From: Ruminococcus sp.
Lineage (GTDB): Bacteria > Bacillota > Clostridia > Oscillospirales > Ruminococcaceae
Assembly: GCA_017462565.1 (NCBI GenBank)
Contig: JAFTQW010000063.1
Span: 124,001-188,000, forward strand
Reading direction: 5' to 3'
Length of the DNA: 64,000 nt
In this document: piece by piece, positions 3,531-41,470 of the stretch
Numbering within the stretch: position 1 is the first letter of the stretch
How the letters are laid out: the number at the start of each line of letters is the position of its first letter
Program-made: the position numbers and the translations under genes
The notes under the pieces: generated by a model
Databases searched by the model: none
What the model saw: the letters and a program-made list of their open reading frames with translations, nothing else
Told to the model about the DNA's origin: nothing

Positions 3531-3703
3531 AAGGGGGACTCTGTCCCCCTCACCCCCTGCCAAAGGGTGAATCCACCCTTTGGAAACCCATTATTAGTTT
3601 ATTGGAAATACCCACAAGGGGTATTTACAATAAACTATGGCGAATGCCATAGAATGATAACTCTTGGCGGAGAATAAGGGAAATAAAATCCTCTTTAATA
3701 AAC
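3531..3703 (+). repeat. Multi-hairpin intergenic repeat, copy R1
   Basis: First + oriented copy of the repeat family described in the findings. In order it has a GGGGGAC/GTCCCCC hairpin, CCAAAGGGTG/CACCCTTTGG, a longer stem built on TTTATTG and CAATAAA around TACCCACAAGGGGTA, then CTATGGC-GAAT-GCCATAG, and a purine-rich tail ending AATAAAATCCTCTTT. It lies between leuD and leuB, genes that would otherwise be adjacent in one operon. Confidence 0.85.
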
Positions 3704-3747
3704 GCAGCCGAGCAGAATAATCAATAATACAAAGGAGATATTCTATA

Positions 3748-4821
3748 ATGGAATTTAATATAGCTTTGCTCAGAGGCGACGGTATCGGTCCTGAGATCGT
3801 AGACAGCGCCGTTGCAGTTCTTGAAAAGACCGCTGAAAAATTCGGTCATAAATTCAATTTTACACCCTATCTCATTGGAGGATGCGCTATCGACGCAACA
3901 GGTAAGCCGCTTCCGCAGGAAACCGTTGAAGGCTGTCTTGCCAGCGACAGCGTTCTTCTTGGAGCTGTAGGCGGCCCTAAGTGGGACGACCAGCCCGGCA
4001 ATAATCGTCCTGAAAAGGCTCTTCTCGGAATCCGTTCCGCACTTGAGCTTTTCACAAATCTTCGTCCGGCAACTCTTTATCCTGCGCTCAGAGCCGCTTC
4101 TCCGCTGAAAGATGAAATAGTCGGCGACGGCTTTGATATCATGATCGTCCGTGAGCTTACAGGCGGAATCTACTTCGGCGACAGAGGCTACAGACAGGGC
4201 AAATACGGCGAAGAAGCCTACGACACCGAGGCTTACAGCGTTATAGAGATCGAGCGTATCGGAAGAGTCGCTTTTGAAACTGCTATGAAGCGCAATAAGC
4301 GTGTTACAAGCATTGATAAGGCTAACGTTCTTGAATCCTCACGTCTCTGGAGAAAGACCATGCATAAGCTCGCCGAAGAATATCCGGAAGTTGAATACAG
4401 CGATATGTTCGTTGACAATGCCGCTATGCAGCTTGTAAGAAATCCTAAGCAGTTCGACGTTATCGTAACTTCAAATATGTTCGGAGATATCCTTTCCGAC
4501 GAGGCTTCTCAGATAACAGGTTCTATCGGAATGCTCGCTTCGGCTTCTCTCGGAGCAACAACAAGAGGTATGTACGAGCCTATTCACGGCAGCGCTCCTG
4601 ATATTGCCGGTCAGAACAAGGCTAATCCTATCGCTACTATTCTTTCAGCAGCAATGATGCTCCGCTATTCTTTCGGTCTTTCCGAGGAAGCAGACTGCAT
4701 TGAAAAAGCTGTTGACAAGGTTCTTAACGACGGCTGGAGAACTGCCGATCTTATGGGCAGCGCAGAGGGAACTCCTCTTACCTGCACCGAAATGACTGAA
4801 AAGGTATTAGAGGCGTTATAA
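3748..4821 (+). CDS. leuB: 3-isopropylmalate dehydrogenase
   Basis: LeuB oxidatively decarboxylates 3-isopropylmalate to 2-ketoisocaproate using NAD+ and a divalent metal. The 357-residue protein starts with the expected [12 protein letters not shown] motif. It also has [11 protein letters not shown], the catalytic region [10 protein letters not shown], the metal-binding [15 protein letters not shown], and [18 protein letters not shown] for NAD binding. The ATG is preceded by AAAGGAG 11 bases upstream. With leuCD upstream it completes the leucine branch apart from leuA, which is not in the window. Confidence 0.97.
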
Positions 4822-4824
4822 TAA

Positions 4825-6003
4825 ATGGATAAAAAATCACTGGAACGTAAAACATTTTCAATTGCAATTTTCATTAACGTTCTTCAGGATAAGACAATAA
4901 ACGATCTGTGCTGTCTTTTGTCGGATAAAGACGAAGCTTTTCTCAACTCCTATGGCTGGTTTATTTCAAGGCTTTATTCAGAAAATGTAAATCTCAGCGA
5001 ATATATCCTTAAAAAAGTTCTTGAAGATGAAAATTTTTATATTGCAGGAAAGGCTGCCGGAAAAGAATTTGATCCGCTTATTGAAGAAACCGTTGAAAAC
5101 GAACTGAAAATTTTTCAGGAACTTTCACAGGTTACCTCAGCTGAAATCAAGGCTGAAATCGGCTACGACGGCTTTCTTCCGGAATGGAGAACCTCTGACA
5201 TTGATTTTGTAAAAGAATACAAAAGCCGCATTGAAAATATCGGACGCTACGGTTATGGCAAGTTTGCTCAGAACAGAATGTTTATTCTCAGAAAAGGAGC
5301 GATAGTTCCTGTTAAGCATCCCGATCCGCAGCGGCTTTCCTCGCTTTTCGGCTACGAAAGAGAACGAAAGGCTGTTATCGACAACACCCTCGCTCTTCTT
5401 AGCGGAAAACCGGCGCAGAACGTTCTTCTTTACGGCGATGCAGGAACGGGAAAATCTTCAACGGTCAAAGCTGTTGTAAACGAATTTGCCGATAAAGGAC
5501 TCCGTCTTATCGAAATAACAAAGGAACAGCTTCGTGATATTCCCGATATTATCGAAAGCATAAGCGCCAATCCGCTGAAATTCATCATCTTTATCGACGA
5601 TCTTTCTTTCGTTTCGGGAGAGGATTGCTTCGGAGCGCTTAAAGCTACTCTCGAAGGCTCTGTTTCGGCAAGAACAGGCAATACTGCGATTTATGCCACA
5701 AGCAACCGCCGTCACCTTGTTAAAGAAAGCTTCTCCGACAGAGACGGCGACGACGTTCACCGCAACGATTCTATGCAGGAAACGCTTTCGCTTTCGGCAC
5801 GTTTCGGTTTAAGAGTTAATTTCAGCAAGCCTGATAAAAAATCATATGTACAGATAGCTCATGAGCTTGCGGCTCAGCACGGAATTGATATTGATTCCGA
5901 AACTCTCGCTCTTAAAGCGGAACAGTTCGCTATGCAGGGAAGCGGCAGATCGCCGAGAACTGCAAGACAGTTTGTAAATCAACTAATTAATGAACAAAAA
6001 TAA
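4825..6003 (+). CDS. AAA+ ATPase, DUF815-like
   Basis: This 392-residue protein has an N-terminal region of about 170 residues without recognised motifs, then an AAA+ core. The core has Walker A YGDAGTGKSS near residue 204, Walker B FIIFIDDLSF near 255, and a sensor-1-like ATSNRRHL. It matches the DUF815 family of predicted ATPases, whose cellular role is unknown. A C-terminal helical lid ends in SPRTARQFVNQLI. It starts 3 bases after leuB, so the two are very probably cotranscribed, but nothing in the sequence ties it to leucine synthesis. The family call is from recognised motifs; function is not assigned. Confidence 0.85.
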   Translation: MDKKSLERKTFSIAIFINVLQDKTINDLCCLLSDKDEAFLNSYGWFISRLYSENVNLSEYILKKVLEDENFYIAGKAAGKEFDPLIEETVENELKIFQELSQVTSAEIKAEIGYDGFLPEWRTSDIDFVKEYKSRIENIGRYGYGKFAQNRMFILRKGAIVPVKHPDPQRLSSLFGYERERKAVIDNTLALLSGKPAQNVLLYGDAGTGKSSTVKAVVNEFADKGLRLIEITKEQLRDIPDIIESISANPLKFIIFIDDLSFVSGEDCFGALKATLEGSVSARTGNTAIYATSNRRHLVKESFSDRDGDDVHRNDSMQETLSLSARFGLRVNFSKPDKKSYVQIAHELAAQHGIDIDSETLALKAEQFAMQGSGRSPRTARQFVNQLINEQK

Positions 6004-6019
6004 AAAGAAGGTAATTAAA

Positions 6020-7222
6020 ATGCTGACTCTTGATAAAATCTACAGCGCAAAATATATACTTAAACAGGTTATAAGAGAAACCGACGTTATCCGTGCGCCA
6101 AAAATAAATCCTGATTCCGATATTTACCTTAAAACCGAGAATCTTCAGATAACCGGCTCTTTCAAGGTCAGAGGAGCTTATTACCGTATGTCTCAGCTTT
6201 CGGATGAGGAAAAAGCTAAGGGAGTTATCGCCTGCTCTGCCGGAAATCACGCTCAGGGCGTGGCTCTTGCGGCTGCTAAAAACGGTATCAAGTCGATCAT
6301 CTGTCTGCCGGACGGAGCGCCTATTTCCAAGGTTGAAGCAACAAAAAGCTACGGCGCAGAGGTTTGCCTTGTCAAGGGAGTTTACGATGACGCTTATGCC
6401 GAAGCTCTCCGCCAGCGTGACGAATACGGCTACACTTTCATTCATCCCTTTGACGACGAAAACGTTATCGCCGGACAGGGTACGATAGGTCTTGAGCTTC
6501 TTGAACAGCTCCCCGATATCGAAGCTGTTATTGTTCCGGTCGGAGGCGGCGGACTTATTTCCGGAGTCGCTTTTGCGATAAAGAGTCTTAATCCGTCAAT
6601 AAAGGTTTACGGAGTTCAAGCTGCCGGCGCTCCAAGTATGGTCAACTCTATCAAGAACGGCAAAATTGAATGTCTGGACAACGTTTCAACCATTGCCGAC
6701 GGTATAGCCGTTAAGGAACCGGGGGAAAATACTTTCAGGCTTATTTCCGAATACGTTGACGATATCGTTACTGTCACCGACGACGAGATCTCAGCCGCTA
6801 TCCTTGCTCTTATGGAGCAGCAGAAACTTGTTACAGAGGGTGCTGGAGCTGTTTCCGTTGCAGCGGCAATGTTCAACAAAGTCCCTATAAAGGGAAAAAA
6901 GACGGTTTGTCTGCTTTCGGGAGGAAATATCGACGTTACTATCCTTTCAAGAGTTATCAAGCGTGGTCTGCTCATGTCCGGACGTTCCTACTCTATGATA
7001 ATAGAGCTTATCGACAAACCCGGTCAGCTTCTTGATGTTTCAAGAATCATCGCTGATCTTGGCGGAAACGTTACGTCTGTTCACCATGAACGTGCAAACG
7101 AAGGTTCGGCTGTCAACGGCTGCTACCTCAGACTGGTGCTTGAAACGAGAAATTACGAGCATATCGAACAGATAAAGAAAGCTCTTGCGGACAAAGGATT
7201 CAAGGTGCTCAATAACAATTAA
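6020..7222 (+). CDS. ilvA: Threonine ammonia-lyase
   Basis: This PLP enzyme deaminates threonine to 2-ketobutyrate, the first step toward isoleucine, through an unstable 2-aminocrotonate intermediate. The PLP lysine is K49 in GSFKVRGA; the phosphate-binding glycine loop is VPVGGGGLISG and the C-terminal catalytic-fold motif is LLSGGNID. A single ACT-like regulatory domain (about residues 325-400, beginning MIIELIDKPGQLLDV) follows. That makes it the roughly 400-residue class rather than the 500-residue two-ACT E. coli IlvA. The ATG at 6020 is chosen because AGAAGG lies 8 bases upstream; the ATG at 5990 would overlap the preceding gene. ridA follows. Confidence 0.95.
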   Translation: MLTLDKIYSAKYILKQVIRETDVIRAPKINPDSDIYLKTENLQITGSFKVRGAYYRMSQLSDEEKAKGVIACSAGNHAQGVALAAAKNGIKSIICLPDGAPISKVEATKSYGAEVCLVKGVYDDAYAEALRQRDEYGYTFIHPFDDENVIAGQGTIGLELLEQLPDIEAVIVPVGGGGLISGVAFAIKSLNPSIKVYGVQAAGAPSMVNSIKNGKIECLDNVSTIADGIAVKEPGENTFRLISEYVDDIVTVTDDEISAAILALMEQQKLVTEGAGAVSVAAAMFNKVPIKGKKTVCLLSGGNIDVTILSRVIKRGLLMSGRSYSMIIELIDKPGQLLDVSRIIADLGGNVTSVHHERANEGSAVNGCYLRLVLETRNYEHIEQIKKALADKGFKVLNNN

Positions 7223-7302
7223 ACAAAATCAATCGTGCTGCGCAGGGATACAAAGAGTCAACGTCCGCTTGCCTTTGCTGCGCTCGGCAAGGCGCTGCTC
7301 TT

Positions 7303-7395
7303 CAGGGAGGCTCTGCCTCTCTCATACACCCTCCGCTTAAGGGCGAATCCGCCCTTAAGAATTCCATTATTAAAGAATTTATTTTAAAATATTTT
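7303..7395 (+). repeat. Multi-hairpin intergenic repeat, copy R2 (degenerate)
   Basis: A shortened copy between ilvA and ridA. The first hairpin reads AGGGAGGC-TCT-GCCTCTCT and the second CTTAAGGGCG-AATC-CGCCCTTAAG. Both keep the pairing of other copies with different bases. The third stem is decayed into an AT-rich run and the fourth is missing. Confidence 0.65.
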
Positions 7396-7418
7396 TATTA
7401 TTTCTGGAGGAAAATATC

Positions 7419-7796
7419 ATGATAAAAATTCATACAGACAAAGCTCCGGCAGCAGTCGGACCGTATTCACAGGCAATGGTCTCTAACGGAATGGTTTACA
7501 CAAGCGGTCAGATCGCTATAAATCCAATGACCAACACTATCGAAGCCGCTACCATTCAGGAGCAGACCGAACAGGTTATGCGCAATCTCGGCGAGGTTTT
7601 AAGAACAGCAGGTTCTTCTTTTGAAAAAGCAGTCAAAACTACCTGCTTCCTTGCAGATATGAACGATTTCGCCGCTTTTAACGAGATCTACGGAAAATAT
7701 TTCACTTCACTTCCGGCAAGAAGCTGCGTTGCCGTTAAAACGCTTCCAAAGAACGTTCTTGTCGAGGTTGAGGTTATCGCCGAAAGCACTCTTTAA
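7419..7796 (+). CDS. ridA: RidA family enamine/imine deaminase
   Basis: RidA hydrolyses reactive enamine/imine intermediates such as the 2-aminocrotonate released by IlvA, which otherwise inactivates PLP enzymes. The 125-residue length is standard. Family signatures are DKAPAAVGPYSQA at the N-terminus, YTSGQIAI, and the C-terminal RSCVAVKTLPKNVLVEVEVIA, which holds the conserved substrate-binding arginine (SLPARSCV). GGAGG lies upstream of the ATG. Its position directly downstream of ilvA fits this role. RidA proteins form trimers in the cytoplasm. Confidence 0.95.
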   Translation: MIKIHTDKAPAAVGPYSQAMVSNGMVYTSGQIAINPMTNTIEAATIQEQTEQVMRNLGEVLRTAGSSFEKAVKTTCFLADMNDFAAFNEIYGKYFTSLPARSCVAVKTLPKNVLVEVEVIAESTL

Positions 7797-7845
7797 AATA
7801 CCGCAATACTGATATTCCTTGTCAGCTTGCCAATCATGTCAACTT

Positions 7846-8010
7846 AAGCGGGGACTCTGTCCCCGTACCCCTGCCAAAGGGTTATTCAACCCTTTGGAAA
7901 CCCAGTATTAATTATTTCAAATACCGATGGTATTTGAAATAATTATGGCTATCGCCAATGATAGAATATTCTTTACAGGTGTTCGAGAAACAAAATCCCT
8001 CAAAATGACA
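7846..8010 (+). repeat. Multi-hairpin intergenic repeat, copy R3
   Basis: A full copy between ridA and nadA. Stems: CGGGGAC/GTCCCCG, CCAAAGGGTT/AACCCTTTGG, and a long stem AATTATTTCAAATACC/GGTATTTGAAATAATT. These are followed by a short GGC/GCC hairpin and the tail AACAAAATCCCTC. The first stem has C:G at a position that is A:T in R1. Confidence 0.85.
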
Positions 8011-8062
8011 TTATTGCCAAAACTACCGATAAAGAATCAGTATCAAATAAAGGAGTTTTTAT

Positions 8063-8992
8063 ATGACAGTAAGGGAATTGCAGGACGCTGTCCTGAAACT
8101 GAAAAAAGAAACAAATACAGCCATTCTCGCCCACAGCTATCAGGCAAGGGAAATCGTTGAGATCGCCGATTTTACCGGAGACAGCTATAAACTCAGCGTT
8201 GACGCTAAAAACATCGATGCGGACAATATTCTTTTCTGCGGGGTTCATTTCATGGCTGAAACGGCAAAAATGCTCTCGCCGCAGAAACGGGTATTTCTCG
8301 CAAACGCTCAGGCAGGATGTCCCATGGCGGAGCAGATGGACGCTGAAATGATATCCGCTATAAAAAATCAGGAGCCTGACCGCACTGTTGTCGCTTATAT
8401 CAACACTACGGCTTCGCTTAAAACGGTCTGCGACGTCTGCGTTACATCCTCCAGCGCACTGAAAATAGTCAGAGCTATTGATAACGACAAGATTCTCTTT
8501 ATTCCGGACTGCAACCTCGGCGATTACGTTAAAAGAAACTGCCCCGAAAAGGATATAAAGCTGCTTCAGGGCGGATGTCCCACTCATGCGGCAGTAACGG
8601 TCAGGGATGTTGAAAGAGTAAAGTCCGAACATCCGAACGCTCTGTTTCTCGTTCATCCTGAATGCCAGCCTGCCGTGACCATGCTTGCCGATTACGTCGG
8701 TTCAACCTCCGGCATAATGGACTTTGCAAAAAAATCCGACGCAACGGAGTTTATTATCGGAACGGAAACCTCTATCGCAGAACACCTTCAATACGAATGT
8801 CCGGATAAGAAATTCATCCCCGTTACAAAAGATATCGTCTGCCGCAATATGAAGATAACAACTCTGCCCGATGTTTACAGCTCTCTTCTCGGAATAGGCG
8901 GAAAAGGCAGCGCTTTTGAAATTTTAATGGACGATGAACTTATCGCTCAGGCAAGAAAATGCATTGACGAAATGATAAGACTGGGCGGCTGA
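8063..8992 (+). CDS. nadA: Quinolinate synthase A
   Basis: NadA condenses iminoaspartate with dihydroxyacetone phosphate to quinolinate, the precursor of NAD, and carries a [4Fe-4S] cluster. The 309-residue protein shows ILAHSYQ, FCGVHFMAETAKML with the first cluster cysteine, CVTSSSALKIV with the second, IGTETSIAEHL and a C-terminal ECPDKKFIPV cysteine. These are the expected three ligands. No nadB or nadC is adjacent; instead hydE begins 2 bases after its stop, so the two are translationally linked. AAAGGAG lies upstream of the ATG. Confidence 0.96.
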   Translation: MTVRELQDAVLKLKKETNTAILAHSYQAREIVEIADFTGDSYKLSVDAKNIDADNILFCGVHFMAETAKMLSPQKRVFLANAQAGCPMAEQMDAEMISAIKNQEPDRTVVAYINTTASLKTVCDVCVTSSSALKIVRAIDNDKILFIPDCNLGDYVKRNCPEKDIKLLQGGCPTHAAVTVRDVERVKSEHPNALFLVHPECQPAVTMLADYVGSTSGIMDFAKKSDATEFIIGTETSIAEHLQYECPDKKFIPVTKDIVCRNMKITTLPDVYSSLLGIGGKGSAFEILMDDELIAQARKCIDEMIRLGG

Positions 8993-8994
8993 AT

Positions 8995-10056
8995 ATGACC
9001 GGACTTGTTGAAAAACTGTATCAGAACGGCGATTTATCTGACGAAGAACTTCTTTCGCTTATAAATTCAAATGACGAACAGACCTCGGAACTGCTGAAAA
9101 AGTATGCTGACGAAGTAAGACAGCGTGTTTACGGAAAAAAGGTTTTTTTGAGAGGTCTTATTGAAATATCGAGCTATTGCAGAAACGACTGCCTTTACTG
9201 CGGAATCAGACGCAGCAATAAAAATGCTCAGCGTTACCGTCTTAGCAGTGAGGAGATAATGAGCTGCTGCGAAAACGGTTACGAATTGGGATTCCGCACC
9301 TTTGTGCTTCAGGGCGGAGAGGACGCTTTTTTCAGCGACGAAGTCCTTGTTCCCATAATAAGAGCTATCCGTGAAAAATACTTCGACTGCGCTATTACGC
9401 TTTCGCTCGGAGAACGCTCTTATGAAAGCTATAAACGGCTAAGGGACGCCGGAGCGGACCGCTATCTTCTCCGCCACGAAGCGGCTTCGGAGGAGCTTTA
9501 CGCAAAGCTTCATCCGGAGAAAATGAGCCTTGAAAACCGCATGAACTGTCTGTTTACCCTCCGTGAGCTTGGCTATCAGGTTGGTGCGGGATTCATGGTG
9601 GGTGCTCCGTATCAGACAGCTTGGCATCTTGTTAAAGATCTGCGTTTTTTGCAGAAGCTCCAGCCGCAGATGATCGGCATCGGACCTTTCGTGCCGCATC
9701 ACGATACTCCGTTTGCAGATCATAACGGCGGAACGCTTGAGCTTACGCTGAAGCTGCTTGGCATTATCAGACTTATGTTCCCGAAGGTTCTGCTTCCGGC
9801 TACGACCGCTCTTGGAACTATTTCACCTGTCGGCAGAGAGCTTGGTCTGCATACAGGCTGCAATGTTGTAATGCCGAATCTTTCCCCTGTTAAAGTAAGA
9901 AAAAAATACGATCTTTACGATAATAAAATATGTATCGGAGAAGAAGCGGCTGAATGCCGCGGCTGCCTTGAAAAAAGAATCAACTCCGCCGGCTATATCG
10001 TTTCCGGCGAGCGTGGCGACCATTCCGATTTTACCGCTTCACAAGGAGAAAAATAA
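8995..10056 (+). CDS. hydE: [FeFe] hydrogenase maturase HydE (radical SAM)
   Basis: HydE is a radical SAM enzyme that works with HydG and HydF to build the 2Fe subcluster of [FeFe] hydrogenase. The radical SAM cluster motif is CRNDCLYC, with cysteines 62, 66 and 69. It is followed by GIRRSNKNAQRYRL, LQGGED, LSLGERSYESYKRLRDAGADRYLLRHE and ATTALGTISPVGRE, all typical of HydE. The length of 353 is normal. The stop and the next start share one base (TAATG), giving coupling to the downstream U32-like gene. hydF and hydG are not in the window. Confusion with BioB or PylB is possible for this superfamily but less likely given the RHE and GERSYE motifs. Confidence 0.9.
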   Translation: MTGLVEKLYQNGDLSDEELLSLINSNDEQTSELLKKYADEVRQRVYGKKVFLRGLIEISSYCRNDCLYCGIRRSNKNAQRYRLSSEEIMSCCENGYELGFRTFVLQGGEDAFFSDEVLVPIIRAIREKYFDCAITLSLGERSYESYKRLRDAGADRYLLRHEAASEELYAKLHPEKMSLENRMNCLFTLRELGYQVGAGFMVGAPYQTAWHLVKDLRFLQKLQPQMIGIGPFVPHHDTPFADHNGGTLELTLKLLGIIRLMFPKVLLPATTALGTISPVGRELGLHTGCNVVMPNLSPVKVRKKYDLYDNKICIGEEAAECRGCLEKRINSAGYIVSGERGDHSDFTASQGEK

Positions 10057-10994
10057 TGAGAGTACGATTTCATCTTCCCGATTTTTCGGGAAATTTCAAG
10101 CTTAATTTTTTATTTGCGGAAACGCTTAAGCATCGTCCGGAATTTTTCAGAGAGGGCGTTGAAATTGCTTCGTTTTACGGAGTTTTTCCGCCGTCTGTCT
10201 GGAACGGCGGCAGAACTCAGGGAGGAGTTGTCGATAAAGCGTTCGTGAAAAACGTAATCAAGGTTTTCAACGAGCGAGGTATTCCCCTTCGTTTCACTTT
10301 CACCAATCCGGCGCTGGAAAAGAAGCATCTCAGCGACAGCTTCTGTAATATGGTAATGAATCTTGCCAATAACGGCTTGAACGAGGCTATCGTTATGTCG
10401 CCGCTTCTTGAGGATTACATCCGAAGAACTTACCCAAAATACAAGCTCACAAGCTCTACCTGCAAAAGAATAACCGATCCCGACGCTTTAAAAGCCGAGC
10501 TTGAAAAGGACTACAGCATCGTTGTTGTCGATTATGATTTCAACAATAATTTCGAGGTTCTTGAAAAGCTTCCGAGAAAAGCCGACTGCGAGCTTCTTGT
10601 AAATGCCTGCTGCGAACCGGGATGTCCGAGAAGATCGGCGCATTATCATTCTATCGGAGTACAGCAGATCGCCTACAACGAGCATATCAAAAAGTACCCG
10701 AACGCTCCGTTCGACGCAAGCAAATACGATCCCGAGCATTTCCGTGAATGTCCTTATTCCAAAAGAGGAATTTTCGAGATACGCAATCTCAGAACGCATA
10801 TCTCGCCCGACGATATCTGGGAAAAATACGTTCCTATGGGATTTGAACAGTTCAAGATCGAGGGCAGAACCGCAAGTCCCCTTAATGTTCTTGAAACCTA
10901 TATGTATTACATGGCTAAGCCCGAATATCGTGACGAGGCAAGATTCACTATTCTGAAAGCTCTTGAAAATTCGCACGCTCTCATATTCAATTAA
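10056..10994 (+). CDS. U32-like protein, tandem paralogue 1
   Basis: This 312-residue protein resembles the peptidase U32 / UbiU-TrhP superfamily, whose characterised members act with an iron-sulfur cluster in hydroxylation or tRNA modification. The FKIEGRT segment near the C-terminus is like the U32 LKIEGR motif. Cysteines occur as SSTCKR, NACCEPGC and ECPYSK; all but part of the last are conserved in the adjacent paralogue and could bind a cluster. The start overlaps the hydE stop, with AAGGAG upstream. The specific substrate is unknown; the superfamily call is from motif resemblance only. Confidence 0.6.
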   Translation: MRVRFHLPDFSGNFKLNFLFAETLKHRPEFFREGVEIASFYGVFPPSVWNGGRTQGGVVDKAFVKNVIKVFNERGIPLRFTFTNPALEKKHLSDSFCNMVMNLANNGLNEAIVMSPLLEDYIRRTYPKYKLTSSTCKRITDPDALKAELEKDYSIVVVDYDFNNNFEVLEKLPRKADCELLVNACCEPGCPRRSAHYHSIGVQQIAYNEHIKKYPNAPFDASKYDPEHFRECPYSKRGIFEIRNLRTHISPDDIWEKYVPMGFEQFKIEGRTASPLNVLETYMYYMAKPEYRDEARFTILKALENSHALIFN

Positions 10995-11005
10995 GGAGAA
11001 AAATT

Positions 11006-11947
11006 ATGAAAGTAAAATTCCATCTGCCGGATTTCGCCCAGCATTTTAAATTAAATCTTGTTTTTGCGGCTATGGTTAAAAGCTGTCCCCAGTTTATGCG
11101 TGAGGGAGTTGAGATCGCTTCGGTTTACGGTGCGTTTCCGCAGTCTCTCTGGAACGGTGGACGAACAAACGGCGGAGTTTGTGATAAAGCCTTCGTCCGC
11201 AGTGTGCTTAAATCATTCAACAGCGAAGGTATTCCGCTCAGATTCACATTTACAAATCCTATGCTCAAAGAGGAGCATTTAAGCGATCCATTCTGCAATG
11301 CGGTGCTGAAAATGGCTAATAACGGTCTTAACGAGGTCATTGTCAATTCGCCTCTGCTTGAAGAATATATCCGCAAAAACTATCCTAAATACAAGCTTAC
11401 AAGCTCTACCTGCAAGCGTATCACAGATATTGAAAAGCTTAAAGAGGAACTCGAAAAGGATTACAGCATAGTGGTTCTCGACTACGATTTCAACAACAAA
11501 TTTGATCTTCTGGAACAAATTCCCCATAAGGAAAAATGCGAGATACTGGTAAACGCCTGCTGCGATCCCGGATGCAAAAGACGTACAAAGCATTATCAGG
11601 ATCTCGGAATGCAGCAAATTATTTACTGCGATCATCTGAAAAAGCATCCCAATAAGCCTCTTAATTTGAAAGATTATCCGGATATGCCCGAAACAGACTG
11701 CCGCTGCGCCGACAGAAGCATATTTGAGATAAAGAATCTGAGCACGCACGTTACTCCTGATGATATCTGGGAAAAATATGTGCCTATGGGCTTCAATCAG
11801 TTCAAAATAGAGGGAAGAACCTCAACAAAGCTTAATCTTATTGAAACCTATATGTACTATATGATAAAACCGGAATGCCGTGACGAAGCAAGATTCATGT
11901 TCCTTTACAATCTGGAAAATTACGGCGTTATCAAAATAAACGACTAA
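11006..11947 (+). CDS. U32-like protein, tandem paralogue 2
   Basis: A 313-residue paralogue of the preceding gene, starting 11 bases after it and clearly alignable end to end: both begin M-K/R-V-K/R-F-H-L-P-D-F. Shared segments include TSSTCKRITD, LEKDYSIVV, LVNACC-PGC and QFKIEGRT. The variable region lies around residues 215-245 before IFEIKNL. Retention of both copies suggests a heteromeric pair, as with UbiU/UbiV, or diverged substrates; this is inference. The nadA-hydE-U32-U32 run is compact enough to be one transcript. Confidence 0.6.
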   Translation: MKVKFHLPDFAQHFKLNLVFAAMVKSCPQFMREGVEIASVYGAFPQSLWNGGRTNGGVCDKAFVRSVLKSFNSEGIPLRFTFTNPMLKEEHLSDPFCNAVLKMANNGLNEVIVNSPLLEEYIRKNYPKYKLTSSTCKRITDIEKLKEELEKDYSIVVLDYDFNNKFDLLEQIPHKEKCEILVNACCDPGCKRRTKHYQDLGMQQIIYCDHLKKHPNKPLNLKDYPDMPETDCRCADRSIFEIKNLSTHVTPDDIWEKYVPMGFNQFKIEGRTSTKLNLIETYMYYMIKPECRDEARFMFLYNLENYGVIKIND

Positions 11948-11972
11948 CGAGTAACCTATCAATTCTGTCAAT

Positions 11973-12150
11973 TAAAGAGGACGCTGTCCCCTTTGACCCC
12001 TGCCAAAGAGTTATTCCTCACAACGGTCGCCTGTCCCCTTTGTCACTTCGTAACATTTCCCCACACTGTGGGGAATCACCCTTTGAAAACCCGGTATTAA
12101 TAGAATATCCTTTTACAGGATTCAAGAAATAAATTCCTTAAACCGACATA
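11973..12150 (+). repeat. Multi-hairpin intergenic repeat, copy R4 (variant)
   Basis: Variant copy after the U32 pair. It keeps the AGGAC/GTCCCC hairpin and the CCAAAGAGT ... ACCCTTTG pair. Between them is an inserted module with a TGTCACTTCGTAACA hairpin and CCCCACACTGTGGGG. The long third stem is lost and the tail AAATAAATTCCTTAAA is kept. Confidence 0.7.
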
Positions 12151-12197
12151 ATGAACAAATTGCAGGAAATTACCCGATATTTCCGAAAGGAGTTTTT

Positions 12198-13718
12198 ATG
12201 AAAACTGCACCGATTTTCAGCAATAATATGGTTCTTCAGCGTGAAAAACCGATCCGCATTTTCGGAGTATGCAAAAAAAATCATCAGCACAGCATAACGG
12301 CAAAAATTCCTGAGCTTGGCGTTTCCGCCGAGGCAATTATTTCCGGCGAAAAATGGATGGCTGTTCTTCCTCCGCTGAAAGCCTGTAAAAGCTGTACGGT
12401 CGAAATAAGCTCCGGCGAGGAAAAAATTATTTACAGCAATGTCGCCGTCGGAGAGGTCTGGCTCGCCGGAGGACAGTCCAACATGGAATTCGAGCTTCAG
12501 AATGATAAAAACGGCAAGGAAGCTCTTCAGGAATGCGAAAAGGAAAACGTTCGGTTTTATGCGGTTCCACGCTGCGAAATGGCTGACGAAAACCTGAAAA
12601 AGGCAGAGGAGCAAAGCTCATGGCAGACTGCTTCGCATAACAATTCTGCAAAATGGTCGGCAGTCGGATATTATTTTGCAAAGAAGCTCAGCCGTAAACT
12701 CGGAGTAACTGTCGGCATCATCGGCTGCAACTGGGGCGGAACCTCCGCATCGGCATGGATGAAACGTGAATATCTTGCTCAGGACAGCCGTATAAGCAAT
12801 TATATAGAAGATTACGATAAAGCGATATCGGGTAAAGCCGATGAACAGATGATAGCCGAATACGACGAATACGTAAACTATCACAGCAAGTGGGAGAAAA
12901 AGGTTCAGCAGTGCTATGCCGAAAATCCGGCTGTAAAATGGGACGAGATTTTAAAAATATGCGGCGAAAACCGCTATCCCGGACCTATGGGTATTAAAAA
13001 TCCAATGCGCCCATGCGGTCTTTATGAAACGATGATAAGCAGAACAACTCCTTATACGCTTGCCGGATTCCTCTATTATCAGGGCGAATCCGACGATCAT
13101 CTTCCGGAAACATACGATACGCTCCTAAAGGCTCTTATCGAAAACTGGCGAAGCGACTGGCTCGATGATGAACTGCCGTTTCTTCTTGTCCAGCTTCCGA
13201 TGCACAAATACGAATCAGACCCCGATTTCAAAAACTGGCCGATTATCCGTGAAGCTCAGATGAAGGTTTTCAAAACCGTTAAAAACACCGGAATAGCCGT
13301 CTGTCTTGACTGCGGCGAATTTAATAATATTCATCCTACAGACAAAAAAGAAGTTGGAAACAGACTTTATTTACAGGCTCTTTCCGAAGTTTATAATCTT
13401 GCGGACAGAACCGAAACTCTTCCTCCCATTTTCCGAAACGCCGTTTTGGAAAATGACAGGATCCGCCTGTTTTTCGATAATTGCAGCGGATTCAGTTCAG
13501 TCTCCGACAAGATAACGGGATTTGAGATTGCAGGCAGTGACGGTAAATTTATCCCCGCTGACGCTGAAATCGACGGAAACACAATTCTTTTGTGCGCCGA
13601 TTTTACAGCTCCTCTTACCGCAGTCCGCTATCAGTGGACAAATTATGCGGAAGTAGGTCTGTTCGGAAAAAACGGACTTCCCGTTCCGACTTTCAGAAGC
13701 AGTATTTACCTTTTCTGA
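12198..13718 (+). CDS. Sialate O-acetylesterase family SGNH esterase
   Basis: Proteins of this family remove O-acetyl groups from sialic acids or from plant polysaccharides. The 506-residue protein has an N-terminal beta-sandwich-like region, then the SGNH nucleophile motif GQSNMEF at about residues 92-98. YYQGESD (about 293-299) and the catalytic IHP (about 378-380) complete the triad region. No signal peptide is visible (start MKTAPIFSNNMVLQ), so it appears cytoplasmic and would act on imported oligosaccharides. In a fibre degrader an acetyl-xylan or acetyl-mannan oligomer role is as likely as sialate. AAAGGAG lies before the ATG. Confidence 0.85.
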   Translation: MKTAPIFSNNMVLQREKPIRIFGVCKKNHQHSITAKIPELGVSAEAIISGEKWMAVLPPLKACKSCTVEISSGEEKIIYSNVAVGEVWLAGGQSNMEFELQNDKNGKEALQECEKENVRFYAVPRCEMADENLKKAEEQSSWQTASHNNSAKWSAVGYYFAKKLSRKLGVTVGIIGCNWGGTSASAWMKREYLAQDSRISNYIEDYDKAISGKADEQMIAEYDEYVNYHSKWEKKVQQCYAENPAVKWDEILKICGENRYPGPMGIKNPMRPCGLYETMISRTTPYTLAGFLYYQGESDDHLPETYDTLLKALIENWRSDWLDDELPFLLVQLPMHKYESDPDFKNWPIIREAQMKVFKTVKNTGIAVCLDCGEFNNIHPTDKKEVGNRLYLQALSEVYNLADRTETLPPIFRNAVLENDRIRLFFDNCSGFSSVSDKITGFEIAGSDGKFIPADAEIDGNTILLCADFTAPLTAVRYQWTNYAEVGLFGKNGLPVPTFRSSIYLF

Positions 13719-13726
13719 TATTTATG

Positions 13727-13963
13727 AAGGGGACTCTGCTCCCAACGGTCGCCCGTACCCTCTGTCAGCAAGCTGACATCTCCCTACACTGTAGGGAGTC
13801 ACCCTTAAACCCCTGCCAAAGGGTGAATTCACCCTTTGGAAACCCACAATTAAATTATTACCGATACCCCGCAAAGGGGTATCGGTAATAATTTAGGCAG
13901 GATGCCCAGACGGAAACAACCTCTTTCAGCAAGGAATCAAGGAAAAAAGTCCGCTTGATAAAA
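13727..13963 (+). repeat. Multi-hairpin intergenic repeat, copy R5 (long variant)
   Basis: Longest + copy. It has the extra module as CTGTCAGC-AA-GCTGACA and CTCCCTACACTGTAGGGAG, then CCAAAGGGTG/CACCCTTTGG. A long stem follows, AAATTATTACCGATACCCC paired with GGGGTATCGGTAATAATTT. The extra-module stems differ from R4 and R7 but remain paired. The tail reads GGAAAAAAGTCCGCTTGATAAA. Confidence 0.85.
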
Positions 13964-14006
13964 ATAACAAAAAATAAATGCTGCTGTAATGCATTCAGCT
14001 TAACGC

Positions 14007-14036
14007 TTGACAAAAACTCTTCATACGGTATATAAT
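14007..14036 (+). promoter_or_regulatory. Sigma-A-type promoter for cysE-cysS
   Basis: TTGACA at 14007-14012 is followed after 18 bases by TATAAT at 14031-14036. A 16-base spacing to TATATA is the alternative. It lies about 145 bases upstream of the cysE ATG at 14181. The leader in between shows no T-box or riboswitch motif that I recognise. Confidence 0.75.
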
Positions 14037-14180
14037 AATAGTATTACAGATATAACAGACAATTTTTACGTTTCCTGAAACTATTGCTCCGACAATTAAA
14101 GCCTGCTAAAAGGCGCAGGATTCAGTTGGCTGAAAAATATGAACAAGGAACCGTTTTATCTATATTTTAAGGAGTTTACG

Positions 14181-14855
14181 ATGCTTTTTAAACAATTAAG
14201 AAGAGATATCAGGCTTATTAAGGAACGTGATCCGGCTGCAAGAAATTCTTTTGAAATTCTTTTGACGTATCCCAGTCTTGTTGCGATAAGAAATTACCGC
14301 ATTGCTCACTGGCTTTATAAGAAAAAAATGTTTACAGCCGCAAGAATTATTTCTCAGAATGCCAGAAGACGTACCGGAATTGAAATTCATCCGGGCGCTA
14401 CGATAGGCAAAGGACTTTTTATAGACCACGGAATGGGAGTTGTTATCGGCGAAACTGCTATTATCGGAGATAACTGCCTTATCTATCAGGGAGCGACTCT
14501 CGGAGGTACGGGTAAGGATAAAGGAAAAAGACATCCTACACTCGGCGATAACGTTCTTGTCGGCGCAGGAGCAAAGGTTCTTGGTCCTTTCAAGGTCGGA
14601 AACAACGTCAAAATCGCTGCAAACGCCGTTGTTCTAAACGAGATTCCCGATAACAGCACGGCTGTCGGAGTTCCTGCAAGAGTAGTCCGCAAAAACGGCG
14701 CAAAGGTCGGCAGAAAATGCGTTACGCAGGAAATAGATCAGGTTCACATCCCCGATCCTGTTTCTCTGGAATTCTGCCGTATGCAGCTTGAAATAGATGA
14801 ACTTAAAAACAAGATCTCAGCGCTTTCATCAGATTCAAAAAATAACAAGGAGTAA
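14181..14855 (+). CDS. cysE: Serine O-acetyltransferase
   Basis: CysE makes O-acetylserine from serine and acetyl-CoA, the first step of cysteine synthesis. The protein has an N-terminal helical part with ARNSFEILLTYPSLVAIRNYR. A left-handed beta-helix of hexapeptide repeats follows (IHPGATIGKGLFIDHGMGVVIGE in two pieces, GDNCLIYQGATLGGTGKDKGKRHP), with the catalytic histidine in IDHGMG. The ATG at 14181 is chosen because AAGGAG lies directly upstream; an ATG at 14139 lacks one. cysS starts 5 bases after its stop, linking cysteine supply to cysteinyl-tRNA synthesis. Confidence 0.95.
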   Translation: MLFKQLRRDIRLIKERDPAARNSFEILLTYPSLVAIRNYRIAHWLYKKKMFTAARIISQNARRRTGIEIHPGATIGKGLFIDHGMGVVIGETAIIGDNCLIYQGATLGGTGKDKGKRHPTLGDNVLVGAGAKVLGPFKVGNNVKIAANAVVLNEIPDNSTAVGVPARVVRKNGAKVGRKCVTQEIDQVHIPDPVSLEFCRMQLEIDELKNKISALSSDSKNNKE

Positions 14856-14860
14856 TCATT

Positions 14861-16282: not shown

Positions 16283-16296
16283 GAATGATAAACTGA

Positions 16297-17082
16297 ATGG
16301 CAAGAATTTATCCCCTTTTCAGCTCCAGCAAGGCAAACTCCACTTTTATCGGCAACGAAAGAGCCGGAATCCTTATCGACTGCGGTGCAAGCTTTAAAAG
16401 GCTTTCTGCGGCGCTGGAATTAAATAACATCCCGCTTTCGGCTGTTCAGGCTGTGTTCATAACTCATGAACACAGCGATCACGTTGCCGGACTTTCAATG
16501 CTTACCAAAAAGACAGGTATTCCCGTCTACGGTCAGAAACGTACTCTTCAAAGACTGTACGACGCCGGAAAAATTGCTCCGGCTTCTCATGTCATCGACA
16601 TGGAAAAACTTTCGATAGAATGCGCAGGTTCGGAAATAAGCTGTTTCAACACACCCCATGATACTATCCAGAGCTGCGGCTACAGAATACATACAGCCGA
16701 CGATAAACTCTGCGCTGTCTGCACCGATCTCGGGCACATCACTCCCGAGGTAGACAATGCTCTCAGCGGATGCAGACTTGTTCTTATCGAGGCTAATTAC
16801 GACGAGAATATGCTACGTCAAGGACCTTATCCGCTTTATCTTAAAGAGCGCATCCTCTCGCCGAACGGTCATCTTTCAAACGACGACTGCGCTGTTCAGA
16901 TCGGAAAGCTTATCGAACGTGGGACAACTCATTTTATACTCGGTCATCTGAGCCAGGATAACAACCGTCCGCATATAGCCGAGCAGACCGTTAAAAGCAG
17001 TCTTTCTCAGTATGCCTTCGGAAAAGACTATCTTATGGGCGCTGCTCCTGTTGAAACTAAGGGAGGTGCTGTGATTTTCTGA
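16297..17082 (+). CDS. Metallo-beta-lactamase fold hydrolase, YycJ/WalJ-like
   Basis: A 261-residue metallo-beta-lactamase-fold protein with the metal motif THEHSDHVAG, a second histidine in FNTPHDT, an aspartate in CTDLGHIT, and a late histidine in ILGHLSQDNNRP. This arrangement is typical of YycJ (WalJ), which in many Firmicutes is encoded near the WalKR system and has been tied to cell division and DNA processing. Here it precedes rlmH, a known neighbour of yycJ, and its stop overlaps the rlmH start. The two-component genes are not adjacent. Confidence 0.85.
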   Translation: MARIYPLFSSSKANSTFIGNERAGILIDCGASFKRLSAALELNNIPLSAVQAVFITHEHSDHVAGLSMLTKKTGIPVYGQKRTLQRLYDAGKIAPASHVIDMEKLSIECAGSEISCFNTPHDTIQSCGYRIHTADDKLCAVCTDLGHITPEVDNALSGCRLVLIEANYDENMLRQGPYPLYLKERILSPNGHLSNDDCAVQIGKLIERGTTHFILGHLSQDNNRPHIAEQTVKSSLSQYAFGKDYLMGAAPVETKGGAVIF

Positions 17083-17555: not shown

Positions 17556-17600
17556 AAACCTGTCAATTCATTGCGGCTGTATTTACTCATCTGGCATTAT

Positions 17601-17772: not shown

Positions 17773-17829
17773 TACAGATAAATAAATACTGTCGCATTGA
17801 ATCAATAGGTTACAAGAGAGGAAAATTTT

Positions 17830-33166: not shown

Positions 33167-33337
33167 AAGGGGGACTCTGTCCCCCTAACCCCCTGCCAAA
33201 GGGGAGTACATCCCCTTTGGAAACCCAATATTAATTACTTCAAATCCCAACAAGGGATTTGAAGTAATTAGGCTGCGCCAAAGAGAACAAACCGTTAACA
33301 GAAGGTAAAAGTGAAAACAAAGTCTCTTCAAAATGAA
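33167..33337 (+). repeat. Multi-hairpin intergenic repeat, copy R8
   Basis: A full + oriented copy located upstream of a - strand gene: GGGGGAC/GTCCCCC, CCAAAGGGGA/ATCCCCTTTGG-type stem, AATTACTTCAAATCCC/GGGATTTGAAGTAATT, GGC-TGC-GCC, and the tail GAAAACAAAGTCTCTTC. Confidence 0.85.
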
Positions 33338-33360: not shown

Positions 33361-33689
33361 CAGGGACGGAAAAGCCGTCCCTGACAGTCTGTCGAAAAAG
33401 TGATTTTTTATTAATAATGGGATTCCAAAGGGACAATGTCCCTTTGGCAGAGTCCAGAGGCAACGCCTCTGGTAGGGTGTGGGGCAAAGCCCTGCATACA
33501 GCCTTCGGGCGCTCCGTAAAGAGTGAATTTCAAAACAGTCCAATGGACTGTTTTGAAAGAGGTGACTCCCCACAGTGTGGGGAGATGTCACGAAGTGACA
33601 GAAGGGACGGCACGTAGTGAGCCCTGTAAGAGAGGGCGTTCCCTTAGTTTTTCTACAAGCTGACAGGGACGGAAAAGCCGTCCCTGATT
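33361..33689 (-). repeat. Composite reverse-oriented repeat R12 flanked by a duplicated hairpin
   Basis: A 23-bp hairpin (CAGGGACGG-AAAAG-CCGTCCCTG) occurs at 33361-33383 and again at 33664-33686. Between them is a - oriented relative of the multi-hairpin family: CCAAAGGGACAATGTCCCTTTGG, CCAGAGGCAACGCCTCTGG, CAAAACAGTCCA/TGGACTGTTTTG, CTCCCCACAGTGTGGGGAG and TGTCACGAAGTGACA. Ends related to CTGTC-GAAAAA face each other. The right hairpin is 9 bases beyond the glmM stop and may act as its terminator. The region 33140-33694 has no gene. Confidence 0.75.
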
Positions 33690-37251: not shown

Positions 37252-37425
37252 AAGGGAGACTCTGTCTCCCTTATACCCTCTGCCAAAGGGGAGTACATCC
37301 CCTTTGGAAACCCGGTATTAAGCTTATATTATCTCCATTCGGAGATAATATAAGCTTAGGGCTTCGCCCAATGGACAATCACTTCTTGTCAAAGAGTAAA
37401 AGAAAAACAAATTCCCCTTTAAAAT
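37252..37425 (+). repeat. Multi-hairpin intergenic repeat, copy R9
   Basis: A + oriented copy inside the - strand phosphonate operon, between phnW and the cytidylyltransferase. Stems: GGGAGAC/GTCTCCC (A:T where R1 has G:C), CCAAAGGGG/CCCCTTTGG, and AAGCTTATATTATCTCC/GGAGATAATATAAGCTT. The last is wholly different in sequence from other copies but perfectly paired. GGGC-TTC-GCCC follows, with tail AAAAACAAATTCCCCTTT. Confidence 0.87.
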
Positions 37426-40012: not shown

Positions 40013-40025
40013 TTTATCCGGATTT

Positions 40026-40189
40026 AGAACTTGTTCTCATAGGATTTGTGCGTAGATTTTCGAGCATAATTTTACTGAGTGCAAGACAAAAAAGTGAAAG
40101 CATACTATTTGTATGGTAAGCTTTTTTAACGCAGCAATCGGTAAAATTTGCCGAAAAGATGCGTGCAATATCCTATGAGAACAAGTTCT
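40026..40189 (+). repeat. Long palindrome element, family III copy 2
   Basis: A 164-bp element with perfect 20-bp inverted ends (AGAACTTGTTCTCATAGGAT and its complement). It shares GATTTTCGAG and AAAATTTGCCGAAAAGA with the copy at 20617-20773 in the same order and orientation, while the terminal stems differ. It lies between the promoter and the ribosome binding site of the yeiH-like gene. Confidence 0.85.
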
Positions 40190-40214
40190 TTTTATAGTAA
40201 AGGAGAAATACACA

Positions 40215-41300
40215 ATGGAATGGACAAAGAAAAACGGTCTTGGAATTATTCTATGCATCGTCATATCGGCGGCTGCGACCTTTTTAGCCTCGCTCAGCAT
40301 AGGAAGCTTTTCGCTTGAAATTATCGGCGCCCCTGTGTTTGCGATAATTTTCGGAATGCTTATAAGCCTTGCTGTTCCGTCGCTTGCAGGAAAAGATTCC
40401 TTAAAGCACGGAATCAAATTCACTTCAAAGAAAATTCTTCAATGGGCAGTAATTATCCTCGGATTTTCGCTCGACCTCAATACGATACTTAAAGTCGGCG
40501 GAAAAAGCCTGCCTGTTATAATTTCAACTATTTCGATATCTCTTATAACTGCTCTGGTTCTTATGCGTGTTATGAAGATAAACAAAAAGGTCGCCTGTCT
40601 TATCGGAGTCGGCTCGTCAATCTGCGGAGGCTCGGCTATCGCCGCAACTGCTCCGGTAATCGACGCTGACGATGACGAGGTTGCTCAGTCGATATCGGTA
40701 ATATTTCTGTTCAACGTCATTGCTGCGCTGATCTTCCCTGCGTTCGGACACGCTATTGGCTTAGGTTCAGAGGGATTTGCAGTTTTCGCCGGAACAGCGG
40801 TAAACGATACTTCTTCAGTTACGGCCGCCGCTTCTACTGCGGAGGGAATTTACGGCGTTGACGGTATTCTTTCATCGGCAATAACAGTCAAGCTTACAAG
40901 AACTCTTGCAATAATTCCTATAACGCTTATCCTTGCGGTTTACAGAACAAGAAAGGCAAAAAAATCCGGCACAGAAACGAATAATTTCTCGCTGAAAAAA
41001 ATTTTCCCGTTCTTCATTCTCTTTTTCATAGCCGCTTCCGTTATAACGACTGTGGTCGGACTTCTTCCGTCAAACGGATTCACAGCCTTTTATGACGAAC
41101 ACTTTGTTCCGGCAGCAAAATGGACAGCTAAATTCTTTATCGCAATGGCAATGTGCGCTATCGGACTTAACACCGATATAGTCGGACTTATCAAAAACGG
41201 CAAAAAACCGATCATCCTCGGACTCTGCTGCTGGGCGGCGATAACGGCAGTTTCTATCGGAGTTCAGATGCTCACGGGAATTTATTACACTAATCTGTAA
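40215..41300 (+). CDS. YeiH family putative sulfate-type exporter
   Basis: A 361-residue polytopic membrane protein with about ten hydrophobic helices, matching the YeiH family (PF03601), annotated as putative sulfate or sulfur-compound exporters. Conserved segments are KFTSKKILQWAVIILGFSLDL, split by a helix start, GVGSSICGGSAIAATAPVI, AGTAVNDTSSVTAAAS and AMCAIGLNTDI. Substrate specificity is not settled for the family. The ATG follows AAAGGAG. Its 5' leader contains a long palindrome element. Confidence 0.85.
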   Translation: MEWTKKNGLGIILCIVISAAATFLASLSIGSFSLEIIGAPVFAIIFGMLISLAVPSLAGKDSLKHGIKFTSKKILQWAVIILGFSLDLNTILKVGGKSLPVIISTISISLITALVLMRVMKINKKVACLIGVGSSICGGSAIAATAPVIDADDDEVAQSISVIFLFNVIAALIFPAFGHAIGLGSEGFAVFAGTAVNDTSSVTAAASTAEGIYGVDGILSSAITVKLTRTLAIIPITLILAVYRTRKAKKSGTETNNFSLKKIFPFFILFFIAASVITTVVGLLPSNGFTAFYDEHFVPAAKWTAKFFIAMAMCAIGLNTDIVGLIKNGKKPIILGLCCWAAITAVSIGVQMLTGIYYTNL

Positions 41301-41308
41301 GGGTGACT

Positions 41309-41470
41309 AAGGGGGACGCTGTCCCCCTTTTCCCCCCTGCCAAAGGGTTATTCAACCCTTTGGAATCCCGGTATTAATTATTTCAAATACCGATGGTATT
41401 TGAAATAATTATGGCAGACGCCATAGCACAAATACCCTTTGGCAAAGAAATAAGAGCACATATTCCCACA
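41309..41470 (+). repeat. Multi-hairpin intergenic repeat, copy R10
   Basis: Full copy after the yeiH-like gene: GGGGGAC-GCT-GTCCCCC, CCAAAGGGTT/AACCCTTTGG, AATTATTTCAAATACC/GGTATTTGAAATAATT, ATGGC-AGAC-GCCAT. It is the last copy before the ICE junction. Confidence 0.85.

Follow-up and report, generated by a model that had tools for sequence, protein, structure and literature searches.

Multi-hairpin repeats of a Ruminococcus genome are probably gene-free mobile elements whose palindromic cores may be renewed by template switching and gene conversion

A family of hairpin-rich repeats is represented by ten copies (R1 to R10) in the window, the whole stretch of 64,000 nucleotides of Ruminococcus sp. 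DNA that was analysed. The repeats are probably gene-free miniature inverted-repeat transposable elements (MITEs) that were moved by ISAs1 and IS4 transposases and whose cores were then reshaped by gene conversion and template switching; we assign this reading a probability of roughly 0.7. One hairpin core is found within two unrelated sets of ends, named B (as in insertion sequences (IS) of the ISAs1 family) and A (as in IS of the IS4 family). The sequence-only reading that had drawn attention to the repeats overlooked the target duplications as well as the inverted repeats at the termini, and also that two IS families end in the same way; the mobility of the family was therefore missed.

Architecture of the elements and copies in the window

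The core is gene-free and about 110-170 bases long. Hairpins 1 and 2 are followed by stem 3, which is hypervariable and mostly 17-20 bp in length, and then by a GGC hairpin and a tail. A covariance model was built from R1, R3, R6, R8 and R10. It recovered all ten copies on the + strand, and every position listed in the sequence-only reading carries the element, with scores from 39.3 to 127.2 bits. The element is longer than the span given there, as terminal inverted repeats lie outside it in R3 (7831-8016), R5 (13698-13985) and R6 (about 17573-17795). A single architecture had been described for all ten copies. Judged by eye, however, a comparable stem 3 is missing from R2 and R4, and an additional hairpin cassette is seen within or next to hairpins 1 and 2 of R4, R5 and R7.

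R1 (3517-3708, 114.1 bits) comprises both hairpins, stem 3 at 3595-3637 with one G.A mismatch and the GGC hairpin, and a diverged outer repeat (GCTGACGTTTATT / AATAAACGCAGC) lies within the same interval. R2 (7303-7412, 52.8 bits) has hairpins 1 and 2, the latter of the CTTAAGGG type. R3 (124.5 bits) is of type A with degenerate ends at 7831-7848 and 7999-8016, of which a single one scored above the threshold; its hairpin 1 is located at 7846-7866, hairpin 2 at 7874-7897 and the arms of stem 3 at 7909-7925 and 7929-7945. In R4 (11960-12127, 39.3 bits) the cassette (12017-12081) occupies the apex of hairpin 2, and in R5 (71.5 bits) it is found in hairpin 1 (13739-13804), together with B-like ends at 13698-13725 and 13966-13985 and stem 3 at 13851-13895. 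R6 (127.2 bits) has diverged B-like ends at 17573-17593 and 17775-17795 and stem 3 at 17665-17703. R7 (25631-25762, 63.3 bits) shows one A-like end, the cassette at 25654-25697 and stem 3 at 25714-25750. The R8 core (33167-33282, 125.5 bits) contains hairpin 1 at 33167-33186 and stem 3 at 33232-33270, the R9 core (37252-37370, 93.9 bits) hairpin 1 with the arms GGGAGAC/GTCTCCC at 37252-37272 and stem 3 at 37319-37358, and the R10 core (41309-41423, 126.1 bits) stem 3 at 41375-41411. The stem 3 arms quoted earlier for R3 (7909-7945), R9 and R5 are exact. On the - strand two weak matches represent related two-hairpin cores (33382-33473, 42.1 bits; 19582-19663, 31.2 bits), and the remaining - strand matches in the window overlap + copies. 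The predicted RNA folds of six copies (150 nt) were 5.9 to 9.4 standard deviations below dinucleotide shuffles.

Size of the family and genomic context

The sequence-only reading had proposed a genome search with a covariance model, and this search matched 147 places in the window's genome (G000). We used the 111 of these 147 matches with at least about 60 bits, of which 110 were extracted (the copy on C50 was omitted), and the best 67 of 97 matches in the genome of a sister species (G031), of which 66 were extracted (C70 omitted). Scores for stem 3 were obtained for 105 of the 110 and 54 of the 66 copies. Two cores face each other across one stem 3 at three sites in G000 and at two in G031; these five sites were counted twice in the tallies of mismatches, loops, covariation and end types, and the main counts were recomputed without them. 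When candidates were scored across several genomes, ten candidates per genome and stricter filters were applied. Most matches have conserved sequences in hairpins 1 and 2, in part by construction, since the model and the search patterns require both. Their conservation is not explained by template switching.

The + orientation claimed for all copies is true for the ten copies of the window but not for the genome, in which 61 of the 110 extracted matches lie on the + and 49 on the - strand. Neighboring genes in G000 were also close to evenly oriented (co-directional left gene in 54/99, right gene in 55/99 cases), and an orientation linked to replication strand or transcription, which the ten + copies had suggested, was dropped. 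In G031 the left gene showed a weak lean to co-direction (40/63, p = 0.043). Long open reading frames were overlapped by one copy in G000 and by two in G031, and for co-directional left genes in G000 the median distance from the stop codon to the copy was 32.5 bases.

No named family had been recognized in the first reading, and Rfam likewise gave no match in the window and none at E ≤ 1 within 3400-8100, thus none above the gathering threshold of any family. Among the titles and abstract openings listed by searches of an open-access library, none dealt with such a family in Ruminococcus. A scan of viral contigs for one exact pattern, taken from a single sequence, was without match, and spread by phage is not supported by that pattern.

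Ends of the elements and parent insertion sequences

Of the 106 G000 copies that had enough flanking sequence, 20 had A ends and 16 had B ends on both sides, while shuffled flank pairs gave 0/318; the corresponding numbers for G031 were 7 (A) and 2 (B) of 66 copies. Copies were also called with one end only, calls for which there was no null. Since neither end type was present in 45/106 copies of G000 and 46/66 copies of G031, many copies can only be presumed to be decayed members.

The B end, CA[CG]GGCAACAGCATTTAC[TA]TTTT, corresponds to that of full ISAs1-type elements. B ends are identical to those of an IS in which contigs break, as seen at 16 of the 16 contig ends that were fetched for carrying this end. 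Peptides encoded there showed 78% and 90% identity to the transposase of a full ISAs1 element of 1157 bp (L160), which matched NF033564 with 367.6 bits. The short IS fragments themselves had no match in NCBIfam and only a weak one in Pfam (PF13808, E = 0.022), and a search of four genomes for the PF13808 family gave one match just below the cut-off; the assignment of the fragments to ISAs1 was settled by the full open reading frame and by pairwise comparison. The A end, CAATGCCAACAACTTAAG, is that of an IS4-type element (L278) in the congener G450, which matched NF033592 with 161.7 bits and is flanked by GTATCCTGAC twice. Of 120 genomes from the genus, 9 contained the exact A end, the window's own among them. 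A full A-type IS was not recognized in G000, whose assembly gaps could hide one. The DDE domain PF01609 was found in both parent-type enzymes (on L278 and L119). Internal matches between element interiors and IS were at chance level by blastn, for related and unrelated IS alike. One allele of stem 3 is common to A and B elements.

Evidence for mobility

Clear target duplications were seen in a minority of copies, most old copies being without a clear one. Ten bases are duplicated at C39:97196 (ACAAGGACTG) and at C54:14891-15180 (AATATAAAAT). Three copies in Ruminococcus flavefaciens FD-1, whose B ends agree with the genus named in the sequence-only reading, are flanked by duplications of ten, ten and nine of ten bases; B-ended elements share duplications of 9-10 bases with the ISAs1 type. 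An empty site was found in G031 opposite about C39:55353-55780, where the duplication is degenerate; the other of the two loci tried showed no contiguous site in G031. A elements were also found inside hairpin 1 of B elements (at C39:55425 with the duplication GTCCCCTTAA, and at L276). Judged from these sequence comparisons, the duplications, the empty site and the FD-1 copies favor mobility and support the view that the family consists of MITEs.

Covariation and mutation pattern of the stems

The observation that the stems change between copies yet stay paired was borne out. Against a tree-aware null, 20 pairs were significant (E ≤ 0.05), all of them drawn pairs and including 17/17 in stem 3; this test used the 96 of 159 rows with all features (86 distinct), and stem 3 was aligned by its pairing, which favors that stem. 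In 139 copies from the two genomes 98.1% of the cells were paired, and 624 cells were changed on both sides compared to 133 in shuffles. The covariation is therefore real, and the lack of significant covarying pairs that had been named as contrary to the first reading was not what we found.

On the + strand, mismatches in stem 3 were more often A.C (32) than G.U (15; p = 0.019), also without the five two-faced sites (30 versus 13, p = 0.014). Weak selection on an RNA of the minus strand could underlie this preponderance of A.C. Mismatches were clustered beside the loop (50/702) compared to positions further out (7/1394; p = 1e-17; 46/654 and 7/1287 without two-faced sites). C/G-rich composition there could account for part of this pattern. 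In addition, mismatches at either tip of a stem are trimmed by the stem finder. Parsimony on branches with 1-3 changed pairs counted 85 two-sided and 46 one-sided changes, on a single tree for elements that recombine. Some copies shared the same stem with an inverted loop (ATAAA/TTTAT, GTAAA/TTTAC, AAT/ATT); the AAT/ATT pair of G031 204291/204351 is a two-faced site and was excluded as evidence. The apex of hairpin 2 also occurs inverted (TTATTCAA in 28 versus TTGAATAA in 2 copies). Loop inversion is off balance, with ATAAA in 37 and TTTAT in 8 copies.

Loci shared with the sister species

At 18 loci both flanks and stem 3 were present in both genomes; two locus pairs (C32:107346 and 107584) were re-matched by hand. 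Stem 3 was the same at 10, intermediate at 2 and different at 6 of these loci. R5 has the same stem 3 at the matching G031 locus, of which one flank was matched, and R8 another stem 3 there (identity 0.65). The G031 orthologue of R9 keeps the hairpin 1 arms of R9, while stem 3 is wholly different. Single pairs that changed on both sides between the species were found for C32:107346 versus C11:332803 and for C3:99944 versus C22:117644.

Because shared loci keep their outer parts while the middles are replaced, we infer that blocks of the core would be copied between copies by gene conversion after insertion. Insertion itself would be mediated in trans, by ISAs1-family transposases for B and by IS4-family transposases for A elements. 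Template switching during replication may copy one arm of a palindrome from the other and at times invert the loop. The mutation patterns suggest that arm complementarity is kept mainly in this way, and selection on an RNA fold would not be needed.

Origin of the covariation

The sequence-only reading had offered two alternatives, namely that the structure is under selection or that palindromes are recreated by a copying mechanism. Of the two, copying is favored by the missing excess of G.U on the + strand, by mismatches lying on the loop side, by the inversion of loops and by a gene orientation that is close to even in G000, and template switching together with gene conversion fits the stem covariation best. 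The covariation could instead result if a constant repertoire of old palindromic modules were only shuffled between copies, without ongoing correction of the arms. Wholesale replacement of stem 3 at shared loci, the allele common to A and B elements and the movable cassette agree with this, but the two-sided changes of single pairs at one locus, the prevalence of two-sided changes on branches with few changes and the loop inversions do not, and we regard shuffling alone as unlikely. Covariation is the usual proof of functional RNA structure, and a core acting as structured RNA, for example as an mRNA-stability or processing element with pairing kept by compensatory mutation, would account for the pairs beyond phylogeny, the very stable predicted folds, the conserved hairpins 1 and 2, the rare overlap with long open reading frames and the lean of left genes in G031. 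RNA-level roles are also described for other MITEs in the part of PMC2229807 used here. Such a function is nevertheless rather improbable in view of the scarcity of G.U relative to A.C on the + strand (the minus strand would fit), the even gene orientation in G000, the exchange of whole stems at many shared loci and the lack of an Rfam family.

Selection of the stems as DNA hairpins, such as cruciform targets or transposition signals, appears quite unlikely. The lack of a G.U preference and the near-even orientation of genes in G000 agree with it, as do the A elements that sit in hairpin 1 of B elements. DDE enzymes act on the ends of elements, however, so that internal hairpins should be unneeded for transposition by either parent-type enzyme, and the mismatches are concentrated next to the loop, from which a cruciform would start to form. 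That the stems are unrelated intrinsic terminators is highly improbable, even though copies often lie close behind stop codons. Terminator-like sites were not enriched in 3400-18000, which covers R1-R6 (21 sites, compared to 17.0 after shuffling). Just one of them fell within a copy, on the minus strand at the small GGC hairpin of R1; for R1-R6, the copies scanned, terminators were thus rejected as a full explanation. The copies moreover have sequence, ends and duplications in common.

If template switching does keep the arms paired, the cores may be regarded as self-renewing palindromes, the sequence of which drifts while pairing persists, giving RNA-like covariation without RNA function. We put this forward tentatively, as somewhat less probable than not. 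Since pairing would outlast sequence change, the same core could ride as a shared passenger inside the ends of the unrelated ISAs1 and IS4 transposases.

Relation to known systems

REP/BIME elements are palindromic, intergenic, modular and of high copy number. An origin of the present family from a REP/RAYT system was rejected, as no Y1_Tnp (PF01797) match was found in G000; G031 had two. The likeness to REP/BIME, as outlined in the part of PMC2817692 used here, lies in these four traits. Unlike REP/BIME with Y1 (RAYT) transposases, the present elements have ends and duplications of the DDE type. They resemble ISAs1-family IS and their non-autonomous derivatives in the B ends and the duplications of 9-10 bases, and IS4-family IS in the A ends and the ten-base duplication of the G450 element, but unlike IS they lack a transposase.

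Bacterial MITEs that fold internally, among them ERIC/IRU/RU-1, Correia/NEMIS and RUP, as far as they are covered in that part of PMC2229807, are likewise short, gene-free, dispersed and mostly intergenic, with terminal inverted repeats, target duplications and stable predicted stem-loops. Compared to the MITEs presented there, our core differs in having several independent hairpins, in occurring between ends of unrelated IS families (ISAs1 and IS4), and in a stem 3 that varies freely yet stays paired. Homogenization of arms, paired changes of several bases and inversion of the spacer at perfect short-loop repeats are features of template switching at inverted repeats in the sections of PMC8794818 and PMC8604942 consulted, which deal with rRNA and microRNA genes and with coding genes of yeast. 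Unlike those cases, the process is inferred here for a bacterial mobile element present in many copies.

With more than 100 copies, the family thus passes a covariation test strongly, while its mismatches and inverted loops, together with an orientation that is not firm, point to a process at the DNA level. If the cores are indeed self-renewing palindromes, covariation by itself would be insufficient proof of a functional RNA in bacterial genomes. The copies form a natural dataset with loci matched in two species, in which template switching and compensatory selection can be measured against each other in bacteria. It is, to our knowledge, unusual that MITEs whose ends belong to two unrelated IS families have one hairpin core in common.

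Copies and Their Distribution

All ten sites that the sequence-only reading had listed were present in the window as described, and scored 39.3–127.2 bits against a covariance model built from five window copies. The ten copies lie within ~38 kb, and the last 22 kb of the window has none. The window's own genome (G000) had 147 model matches. Rfam held nothing resembling the copies at the thresholds used. When six copies were folded as RNA, they were 5.9–9.4 sd below shuffles. In the sister species (G031), copies on contig C11 looked clustered, with many at 199–390 kb and 1.18–1.42 Mb and few elsewhere.

Within the genus, a first model matched 22 of 36 genomes, G000 among them, and it also matched 1 of 24 others. 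At E ≤ 1e-5 a second model matched 20 of 345 in the order, again counting G000. Hairpins 1 and 2 were kept in most matches, partly by construction, since the model requires them. Six of the second-model loci outside the genus (L288–L293) were read. Each had hairpins 1 and 2, after which came a third stem with a different sequence or none alike; the pair of hairpins 1 and 2 is therefore wider than the family. Hairpins of the GGGG[AG]C..GTCCCC type, succeeded by one resembling CCAAAGGG..CCCTTTGGAAACCC, recurred across the order (L288–L297, other genomes of order and genus); at L288 and L293 this arrangement stood directly after an apparent stop codon.

Terminal Ends and Mobility

Alignment of the 5' and 3' flanks of each copy revealed inverted repeats beyond the span of the sequence-only reading. 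Two end sets recurred: A, CAATGCCAACAACTTAAG, and B, CA[CG]GGCAACAGCATTTAC[TA]TTTT. Among 106 copies of G000, 20 had A and 16 had B on both sides, 25 had one recognisable end and 45 none; the respective numbers for 66 copies of G031 were 7, 2, 11 and 46. Sixteen contig ends were chosen for fetching because a B end was present, and 16 of 16 broke in multi-copy sequence starting with that end. Peptides from these breaks were 78% and 90% identical to the transposase of L160, which comes from an uncultured Ruminococcus. This complete IS of 1157 bp has B ends, encodes an ISAs1 transposase and shows a nine-base duplication (by eye). A congener (G450) carried a 2.3-kb element with A ends, which encodes an IS4-family transposase and has the same ten bases on both flanks; it encloses an IS5-like gene that scored under its cut-off, as well as nine single N.

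Several copies were flanked by ten-base duplications. A elements were inserted in hairpin 1 of B elements, and the matching site in G031 did not contain the nested A-in-B insertion of ~C39:55353–55780 (contig:position in G000). Ruminococcus flavefaciens FD-1 had three copies, found at 33.7–37.1 bits in 3 of 80 loci. Their ends were B-type, and the duplications agreed at all ten bases in two copies and at nine of ten in the third. Their cores comprised hairpin 1 and a variant hairpin 2, while the position of stem 3 was taken by a short GCCGCC hairpin.

A second ISAs1-type transposase (L119, G000 C6:1–966; NF033564, 278.2 bits) is cut off by the end of its contig; with up to two mismatches allowed, neither A nor B ends were found near it. 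Long inverted repeats of ~70–100 alignment columns extended past the known ends into copy-specific flank at C28:107684 (98 columns), C39:33701 (74 columns) and C8:37148 of G000 (L060, L073 and L043). For 12 of 104 copies, no other partner matched an arm better than the copy's own second arm did.

Covariation of the Stems

In an alignment of 139 copies (two genomes), 98.1% of cells were paired. Both sides had changed in 624 cells; shuffling gave 133 such cells, and sliding the partner gave 59–104. A home-made test similar to R-scape replayed the tree's 751 substitutions at random columns; with 86 distinct copies it yielded 20 column pairs at E ≤ 0.05, all 20 of them drawn pairs. Significance was reached by 17 of 17 pairs in stem 3, which the test favours as this stem was located through its own pairing, by 2 of 9 in hairpin 1 and by 1 of 9 in hairpin 2; most of the remaining pairs were nearly invariant. 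Real stem 3 had a mean of 17.9 bp (minimum 14), shuffled segments a mean of 6.1 (maximum 18).

Selection on an RNA from the strand of the sequence-only reading predicts more G.U than A.C mismatches. The opposite was seen in 117 distinct stems (A.C 32, G.U 15; binomial p 0.019), and it persisted at 30 to 13 (p 0.014) once the five sites that had been read on both strands were dropped. Such an excess of A.C would be in keeping with an RNA from the minus strand. Neighbouring genes in G000 were co-directional in near even proportion (left 54/99, right 55/99). Where a branch had one to three changed pairs, parsimony gave 85 two-sided and 46 one-sided changes; among the one-sided ones, Watson–Crick pairs turned into A.C eight times and into G.U three times.

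Two papers describe arm homogenisation and spacer inversion (PMC8604942) and also compensatory change (PMC8794818) as known products of replication template switching. In fold-back copying, inner pairs would act as primer and the outer arm would then be copied. Mismatches clustered at the loop side (50 of 702 up to six pairs from the loop, 7 of 1394 further out), as fold-back copying would predict because inner pairs prime. Both orientations of loops and apexes occurred on the same stems, in uneven numbers (ATAAA 37, TTTAT 8; GTAAA 15, TTTAC 2). The co-directional lean of left genes in G031 (40/63, p 0.043) counts against template switching.

Probable Exchange Between Copies

Through their flanks, 34 copy pairs were matched between G000 and G031 (flanks 79–97% identical; one pair doubles another). 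In 18 pairs both flanks matched and stem 3 was scored: it was the same in 10, intermediate in 2 and unrelated, with similarity at random-pair level, in 6. Of the pairs matched on one flank only, 2 had the same stem 3, 2 an intermediate and 6 a different one. Another five matched pairs lacked stem 3 in one copy or both. Window copy R9 and C65:48562 matched G031 in flank, hairpin 1 and 3' end, while the middle was replaced; the GGGAGAC/GTCTCCC arms of R9 are old, since they are present in both species. Replaced middles between matched loci are best read as gene conversion.

A movable hairpin cassette of 44–66 bases (GTCACTTCGTGAC plus TTCCCCACACTGTGGGGAA type) was located at the hairpin 2 apex or in hairpin 1 (window 12017–12081, 13739–13804 and 25654–25697), and inspection by eye placed it in L275 and several copies of G031 as well. 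Two opposed cores over one stem 3 formed a largely palindromic unit at C19:8731/8782, C19:26796/26849 and C52:47691/47747 of G000 and at C11:204291/204351 and 242270/242322 of G031. Another dispersed repeat lies on the minus strand of the window (19580–19741 and 33388–33659); its two segments are 91% and 94% identical between the two copies, and the second one is GCACG..GTTCCCTTAGTTTTTC.
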